64,000 nucleotides of DNA from an uncultured Clostridia bacterium (GTDB lineage Bacteria; Bacillota; Clostridia; Christensenellales; Christensenellaceae). The position numbers and the translations under genes are program-made. The notes under the pieces were generated by a model, which saw nothing but the letters and a program-made list of their open reading frames with translations, was not told the origin of the DNA and did no database searches. Below are positions 25,196 to 26,235 of the stretch, in pieces (position 1 is the stretch's first letter; each line of letters starts with the position of its first letter). Location: contig CALVMT010000033.1 in the NCBI GenBank assembly GCA_944347775.1, forward strand, positions 32,578 through 96,577, read 5' to 3'.

Positions 25196-25825
25196 TCAAT
25201 GTTGAAAGTTTTGTAACATTTGCATCGCTTGCATAAGATTAGTTCCAGAACTCATGTGGGATAAAGCATTTGCCATAGCCATAGCTTTTTGGATTTCTGC
25301 TGACGAACCTGTGCTTGACTGGTCTAATAGAGAAGCGATATCTGGCAGAGAAGAAGCGTCAAGACCACAGCTTTTCATGCGCATAAGTTTTTCTCGAAGG
25401 ACAATGTATTTTTTTAATTGTTCAAAAGCACGGGCGCTGTTTTGCCCCCCATATTTTTTTAATGTATCCAATAAACCAAGAAGACGTTCGCTTTGGGTGA
25501 GCCAACAACGTTGAGGTTGCGGGCGCGGCGGATTGAGACAAGGATGAGAACATAATTCGCGAGCGGCATCTCCGGCCTGAAGAAGATGATGTGCGGCAAG
25601 AGCATCATGTTTACCCAGATAAGGCATAATATCTCGGATCATGCCAAAAGTAGCTTGGTTTACAAAGCCGTCTTTATAGACAAGAGAAAGTAAGTACAAA
25701 AGTGATGGCGAAAAACAAAGCTGTTCTGGTTCGGGAAAACATGGTGTTTCTTTTGGAGAAATTTTACACTTTGCAGAGATAACACAATGACGGTCAGGGT
25801 GTGGAGGGCGACGGGGATATTTCAT
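25196..25825 (-). CDS. Unrecognised protein, candidate sigma-E-dependent sporulation gene
   Basis: 209 residues; AGGAG about 9 bases before the ATG. I do not recognise the family. The first 45 residues are rich in proline and cysteine (MKYPRRPPHPDRHC; four Cys). Residues 45-95 are helical (YLLSLVYKDGFVNQATFG), and the C-terminal half is helical with leucine, methionine, alanine and glutamine (LMQAMQMLQNFQH). No signal peptide or membrane helix. It is transcribed away from the 93-residue gene on the + strand, and both share a back-to-back sigma-E-like promoter region. A coat or mother-cell role is plausible but unproven. Confidence 0.7.
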   Translation of the reverse strand: MKYPRRPPHPDRHCVISAKCKISPKETPCFPEPEQLCFSPSLLYLLSLVYKDGFVNQATFGMIRDIMPYLGKHDALAAHHLLQAGDAARELCSHPCLNPPRPQPQRCWLTQSERLLGLLDTLKKYGGQNSARAFEQLKKYIVLREKLMRMKSCGLDASSLPDIASLLDQSSTGSSAEIQKAMAMANALSHMSSGTNLMQAMQMLQNFQH

Positions 25826-25861
25826 TATAAACAGCTCCTATAAGAAGATGGTTTTTATCAT

Positions 25862-25917
25862 ATCTTATGCGAATTAAAGGGAAAATGTGCACAATTTCAG
25901 GAGAAAACGCATACAAT
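25862..25917. promoter_or_regulatory. Overlapping divergent sigma-E-like promoters
   Basis: On the + strand: GCACAAT (25889-25895), 14 bases, CATACAAT (25910-25917). On the - strand: GCACATT (25890-25884), 14 bases, CATAAGAT (25869-25862). The B. subtilis sigma-E consensus is about GHATATT and CATACAHT, with a 14-15 base spacer. Scores are 5/7 and 8/8 for the first, 6/7 and 6/8 for the second. The two -35 boxes overlap on the palindrome GTGCAC, giving a mirror-symmetric control region. By-eye match. Confidence 0.55.
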
Positions 25918-25953
25918 GCTCATGAGCATATCTCATAAAAAAGGAGGATAAGA

Positions 25954-26235
25954 ATGGCAAAGAAAGATTTACGAAGTTTTGCAAATAAGAAATCGGGCAA
26001 AACGATGAATCCGCAGCAAAAAGTACAGGCTGACCAATTGATGAAACAGGCTGAACAGTTTAAAGGGAAAAGTGATACAGAACTTATGGCACGACTAATG
26101 GAAGAGATAAGTAAAGGTAAAGCCAATGGTTCAATTAATCGAGAAACAATACAACAATTTGTTGCCCAGGTCTCACCGATGATGAATGCTCAGCAAAAAA
26201 ACAAACTGAACGAAATTACAAAGAAATTATTCTAA
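25954..26235 (+). CDS. Unrecognised 93-residue helical protein, candidate sporulation gene
   Basis: ATG seven bases after AAGGAGG. The product is basic, glutamine- and lysine-rich, with no membrane helix or cysteine. Residues 20-90 should form helices (TELMARLMEEISKGKANG, then VAQVSPMMNAQQKNKL). I cannot assign a family. It is preceded by a sigma-E-like promoter with a perfect CATACAAT -10, paired with a divergent one for the 209-residue gene, and lies directly before spoIIE. That context suggests a mother-cell sporulation protein. Confidence 0.75.
   Translation: MAKKDLRSFANKKSGKTMNPQQKVQADQLMKQAEQFKGKSDTELMARLMEEISKGKANGSINRETIQQFVAQVSPMMNAQQKNKLNEITKKLF

Follow-up and report, generated by a model that had tools for sequence, protein, structure and literature searches.

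Overlapping divergent promoters of probable sigma-K type serve a conserved pair of orphan genes in uncultured Clostridia

Introduction

Two genes of no recognised family diverge from a short gap beside spoIIE in the genome of an uncultured clostridial bacterium. Which sigma factor reads them, are they read together, and what might their products do in spore formation? We analysed the 64,000-nucleotide stretch of DNA that holds them (the window), which lies on contig C33 of the draft genome G000 (2.05 Mb in 172 contigs, completeness 90.21%). An initial annotation had proposed that back-to-back sigma-E-like promoters sharing a palindrome drive both genes, probably through one factor, and that the products are candidates for mother-cell proteins acting together.

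In excerpts of the published work on C. difficile (PMC3789822), the -10 elements of sigma-E and sigma-K promoters are closely alike, and the -35 element tells them apart, ATA pointing to sigma E and AC to sigma K. The two factors are themselves distinguished in region 4.2 by a glutamine (sigma E) versus an arginine (sigma K), and spoIVA of C. difficile is preceded by a mapped sigma-E promoter (excerpts of PMC3789822).

Results

The opposed promoters of the initial annotation are present base for base between positions 25862 and 25917. On the minus strand, the -35 element TGCACATT (25884..25891) and the -10 element CATAAGAT (25862..25869) are separated by a 14-base spacer and lead to a 209-residue ORF (25196..25825) with the Shine-Dalgarno-like sequence AGGAGC (25834..25839, minus strand). 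On the plus strand, TGCACAAT (25888..25895) and CATACAAT (25910..25917), again 14 bases apart, lead through the Shine-Dalgarno sequence AGGAGG (25942..25947) to a 93-residue ORF (25954..26235). The gap between the two ORFs measures 128 bases (25826..25953). The two -35 elements overlap, as claimed, on the palindrome GTGCAC (25887..25892, both strands), which is also present in the related loci L003, L005 and L006, the last two being near-identical. The sequence of both -35 elements is CACA, in which the C is characteristic of sigma K and a T would be expected for sigma E; at that register the window holds AC on both strands and no ATA-type -35. CATAnnnTA is the -10 form of sigma-K promoters. 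The minus-strand -10 fits it in its extended form CATAAGATA, and the plus-strand -10, extended to CATACAATG, matches CATA and the T, with the final A absent. Upstream of the pair are genes that we take to be spoVAC, spoVAD, spoVAE and cinA. The gene that follows is indeed spoIIE, matching Pfam SpoIIE above its cut-off and TIGR02865 at 476.6 bits, slightly under the cut-off of 490.8.

The motif by itself carries little evidential weight: the window has four matches to CACA-N16-CATA where 1.95 are expected, and four are reached in 12 of 100 shuffles. More unusual is that two of the four adjoin within a single divergent gap. It is above all recurrence in relatives, not rarity of the motif, that carries the case for a promoter pair. 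L003 is the closest relative; 10 of the 12 bases of the shared -35 stretch are unchanged there, as are 5/8 and 6/8 in the -10 elements, while the spacers keep just 6/14 and 3/14. Sigma 70 found no support as the factor involved: one 9/12 match overlaps the plus-strand promoter, and the region has three sites against 4.4 expected.

The two genes stay together in relatives, as the initial annotation had proposed to check. Among 18 genomes of the family, the 93-residue protein is found in six and the 209-residue protein in the same six, always in divergent arrangement. A spoIIE-like gene follows the pair in five of the six loci of family f1; the pair is intact beside different neighbours in L004, and f22 loci likewise have other neighbours. 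Across 200 genomes of the order, the profile of the 93-residue family matches 145 and that of the 209-residue family seven, four of them in f22, where the pair is again divergent. In the remaining families, what mostly stands in the partner position is a short protein of rapid evolution, with much Leu, Ser, Ala, Gly and Asn and frequently an LLPLL-like start. An automatic rule placed a partner in 88 of 113 loci (146 places minus 36, none of which had E better than 1e-8, plus three own-family genomes from outside the sample). By eye, about five of these calls were judged spurious (L056, L067, L073, L098 and L102), and in about a dozen loci missed by the rule a similar gene is visible, farther off or with no clear ribosome site. 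Conservation is high in the 93-residue family; its partner changes fast and turns low-complexity.

Occurrence of the 93-residue family follows that of sporulation genes. Of its 145 positive genomes in the order sample, spoIVA is present in 141, and sigma-K/E matches in the remaining four (G039, G063, G064 and G113), so the spread into non-sporulating lineages that would have spoken against a sporulation role is absent from this sample. Of the 200 genomes, 166 have spoIVA; in 25 of those 166 no homologue of the 93-residue protein is detectable, and 30 of the 200 have neither. Within the genus itself, two genomes (G008 and G010) lack the pair, spoIVA and sigma-K/E matches (E <= 1e-30) altogether. 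Family f29 (for example G068 and G088) combines genomes of 0.8-0.9 Mb, 99-100% complete, with spoIVA, sigma-K/E matches and weak matches to the 93-residue family; sporulation genes in genomes so reduced (compare UBA1242) have already been termed unexpected in an excerpted report (PMC12306168).

We then compared the -35 elements of the pair with those of spoIVA. An expectation-maximisation promoter model, seeded solely with the -10 form CATAnnnTA, arrived at a -35 whose key base is C, for the 93-residue genes and for their partners alike, with log-likelihood gains of 655 and 658 for the two sides against 116-134 in five single-base shuffles each. The identical procedure applied to 29 spoIVA upstream regions learned T at that base. 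We also counted AC or AT at 16 or 17 bases upstream of CATA, leaving out sequences with no -10 scoring at least 6 (11/113 on the 93-residue side, 8/90 on the partner side and 5/29 for spoIVA). Among these related loci, which are not independent draws, AC is present at 57 of 102 sites of the 93-residue family (shuffle mean 12.1, maximum 23) and at 57 of 82 partner sites (shuffle mean 8.8, maximum 18), and AT at the same register at nine and six sites, respectively. The spoIVA reference shows the reverse, with AC at 0/24 and AT at 17/24. The spoIVA set comprises 30 loci, of which that of G000 was read by eye, outside the automated count of 29; its promoter, GGCATGAA-N14-CATATATT, has T at the key base. 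At least one AC site is found in 18 of 22 families on the 93-residue side and in 17 of 20 on the partner side. Family f20 has AC at 0/11 sites on the 93-residue side but at 7/10 on the partner side. Exceptions on the 93-residue side are f15 (AC 1/12) and f14 (AC 0/5), and AT is commoner than AC there in f19, f14 and f2; on the partner side f19 has three AT and no AC (n = 3).

The sigma factor available to read these promoters points the same way. A sigma gene on contig C36 of the same genome (L218) reads ISRSY in region 4.2, as does L219, and its arginine is presumably the residue that marks sigma K. This factor scores 289.9 bits against the sigma-K model TIGR02846, below its cut-off of 298.65. 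It is of the arginine type and the single sigma-K/E match in the G000 draft at E <= 1e-30, so sigma E may be absent from the assembly. The initial assignment to sigma E is not supported, as both -35 elements have AC whereas spoIVA of G000 and its relatives has AT. The promoters are better read, on their bases, as sigma-K than as sigma-E type, which would shift the expected timing of the pair from early to late; the proposed mother-cell compartment is kept. That one factor turns on both genes is probable.

Two further genes were tried as sigma-K references and set aside. A dpaA-like gene was matched weakly in 30 of 101 genomes of the order, never above cut-off, and its starts and operons were too uncertain. 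YabG, described as a genomic signature of endosporulation in an excerpted study (PMC10681294), was matched in 0/101 genomes.

The spacing of the opposed promoters is not random. We measured the distance between opposed CATA motifs in the 81 loci where both genes have a site, and compared it with permutations in which promoter-to-start distances were exchanged among loci. Among these loci, again related and hence non-independent, the distance is 4-7 bases in 40 (10 families; permuted mean 3.4, maximum 11), 20-22 bases in five (4 families; permuted mean 2.1, maximum 10) and 39-41 bases in 12 (6 families; permuted mean 1.4, maximum 8). By these permuted values, the 4-7 and 39-41 classes exceed chance and the 20-22 class does not. 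The other 24 loci fall outside the three classes, and we think that some of them reflect a wrong automatic choice of -10 or start. In the 4-7 class the -10 elements abut as ATATGCnnGCATAT, with the -35 elements on the outside. In the 39-41 class, to which the window belongs (41), the -35 elements overlap, in the window on GTGCAC. Taking transcription to begin 7 bases past the -10, we predict starts near 25924 (plus strand) and 25855 (minus strand) in the window. The distance between starts would then be about 69 bp there and about 33 bp in the 4-7 class. Two polymerases should clash in either layout.

Other genes of the genus carry the same promoter pattern. An exact search of seven genomes for CACM-N16-CATAnnATA gave 22 places, against eight for the reversed pattern. 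Eleven of the 22 lie 22-35 bases ahead of a start with a ribosome site, and the genes that follow are presumably those of an ABC-transporter ATPase, an amidase-like protein, a CotJA-like protein and a PRC-barrel protein. The gene pair itself accounts for three of these 11 places (both genes in G009 and the 209-residue gene in G000, where the match includes the -10 at 25862..25869). The ATPase gene has a match in five genomes (L214, L204, L206, L201 and L212, in G000, G009, G011, G012 and G013, respectively) and, in the two genomes inspected (G000 and G011), is separated from the sigma-K gene by some 5 kb. The other 11 places show no such arrangement and lend no support to a regulon, and some are in the two genomes that lack spoIVA. 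The B. subtilis sigma-K regulon includes coat and lysis genes, in agreement with the genes found here.

Some of these neighbourhoods have features of their own. In G000 and G011, permease and substrate-binding genes follow the ATPase gene, and loci of f13 and f17 have ABC-transporter genes next to the gene pair as well. At L215 (G000:C51:1993-2021), a sigma-K-type promoter precedes a gene similar to N-acetylmuramoyl-L-alanine amidases, whose product is possibly a mother-cell lysis enzyme.

Neither protein belongs to a recognised family, in line with the initial annotation: no curated Pfam or NCBIfam model matches either window protein above cut-off. Scattered weak matches were all that curated families gave with 54 members of the 93-residue family, and Pfam with 37 partners. 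The 93-residue protein has a conserved C-terminal helical domain (KSExELMxEL...SPMLxxxQRxKL), and the 209-residue protein has a C-terminus rich in M, Q and S. Structure models, each built from a five-sequence alignment and of low confidence, show helices only for the former (mean pLDDT 64.4) and a mostly helical core with poorly predicted ends for the latter (mean pLDDT 63.9). No hit at E <= 0.001 came from Foldseek with the 209-residue model, and none below E 0.18 from a search of PDB sequences with the 93-residue family. In the titles and opening lines of abstracts searched, no work describes this gene pair. Since family, structure and fold searches gave nothing, any guess at function has to be drawn from the stage of expression, the pairing and the composition. 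The likeliest guess is a late role at the spore surface, with the chances about evenly balanced.

Beyond the order, we searched with a profile built from the 54 members of the 93-residue family. A phylum sample, which holds few genomes of the same class (at least 14 among those listed), gave one match in 398 genomes at E <= 1e-5, namely the window's own genome. This suggested a family confined to the order, which the class sample ruled out: 52 of 391 genomes matched at E <= 1e-3, 15 in the order and 37 outside it, two of the latter (ORFs of 842 and 1080 residues) probably by chance. We inspected 16 loci outside the order and found a divergent long ORF in most, with a wider gap and seemingly separate promoters. 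With a partner profile made from f1 and f22 only, 14 of the 16 gave a match to a frame of 289-382 residues on the opposite strand (E <= 0.0011, below 1e-4 in 12); L248 and L249 gave no match. Several of these matches are short (24-41 residues), and those in L239, L241 and L243 are N-terminal only; in the control, one of 440 shuffled partners reached E 0.0049. The 93-residue-family frames at these loci themselves match the partner profile weakly (E 0.00026 to 0.05, over short stretches), mostly in its C-terminal part. Judging by such matches, the two proteins may be distant paralogues.

Discussion

We consider it probable that the window holds a compact divergent pair of sigma-K promoters driving two small helical proteins that are made late in the mother cell and act together. 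Because the opposed promoters have the GTGCAC core of their -35 elements in common, sigma-K RNA polymerase would load in either orientation and probably not in both at once, so that loading would probably be mutually exclusive. From the common core it would follow that expression of both genes falls in one stage and that their levels are related. The products would most likely cooperate, presumably through physical contact, late in sporulation, for example in assembly of the coat or crust.

The evidence bears differently on other readings of the locus. That the promoters are those of early mother-cell genes, read by a sigma E that in this lineage tolerates C in the -35, is quite unlikely: the -10 CATACAAT suits sigma E as well as sigma K and families such as f19 and f14 have AT at the register, but spoIVA of the same order and genome keeps T, and most families of the gene pair show the reverse of spoIVA. 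The inverted repeat invites another explanation, in which the palindrome chiefly serves a dimeric regulator that binds there and controls both genes, its overlap with the promoters being purely positional. Both GTGCAC and the ATATGCnnGCATAT of other families are true inverted repeats, as such a site would be. What is conserved, however, is the bases of the -35 and -10 elements, whose register is fixed on each strand; a single regulator site is disfavoured because the inverted repeat is not the same in every spacing class although the promoter elements are, and we regard this explanation as very improbable.

It is also conceivable, though unlikely, that two independent sporulation genes share an intergenic region with no joint function. 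Divergent gene pairs are frequent in bacteria, and the wider gap and seemingly separate promoters outside the order would suit such a history. Against it, the pair persists when its neighbours change (L004 and f22), a partner-like ORF is divergent in other orders too, and the spacing of the promoters is quantised.

A wider form of the sigma-K reading is possible, and we put it forward tentatively. The two proteins might constitute a late-sporulation module found across the class, in which mutually exclusive, symmetric sigma-K promoters serve as a stoichiometry device. Selection would then have kept alternative symmetric layouts, with -10 elements abutting, -35 elements shared or, perhaps, a -35 lying over the opposing -10, even as the partner diverged almost past recognition. 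If the sigma-K reading is right, late spore formation in Clostridia that are largely uncultured gains a conserved, unnamed protein pair, and divergent promoters that overlap form a natural series for a single alternative sigma factor. With that series one could test whether the symmetry of promoters governs the ratio of two protein partners.

Known systems share parts of this picture. Sigma-K promoters of B. subtilis and C. difficile, as far as excerpts of PMC517825 and PMC3789822 describe them, likewise have an AC -35, a CATA-type -10 and comparable spacing, and are served by a sigma factor with the region 4.2 arginine; unlike those, the two promoters here overlap head to head, serve two orphan genes and are read from sequence. 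The sigma-K-controlled coat proteins of C. difficile (CotA, CotE and others), few of which are held in common with B. subtilis according to the same excerpts (PMC3789822), are late mother-cell products as the window pair would be; unlike them, the pair is known from its genes alone and matches no Pfam or NCBIfam family. The bidirectional promoters of E. coli and Salmonella, as excerpted in PMC10268837 and PMC12825309, are also pseudo-symmetric DNA on which polymerase loads either way and simultaneous binding is sterically unlikely. They share one -10, with starts 7-25 bp apart (same excerpts). At basal E. coli promoters, polymerase is reported to load too seldom for interference (PMC12825309). 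In the window, the -10 elements do not overlap and the Cs of the opposed CATA motifs are 41 bases apart, which places the pair outside the Warman/Grainger definition of a bidirectional promoter, by divergent starts around a shared -10; here it is the -35 elements that are shared, and in other families the -10 elements abut. The kinds of regulation involved are thus known, and what is new is the protein families and the unusual layout of their promoters.
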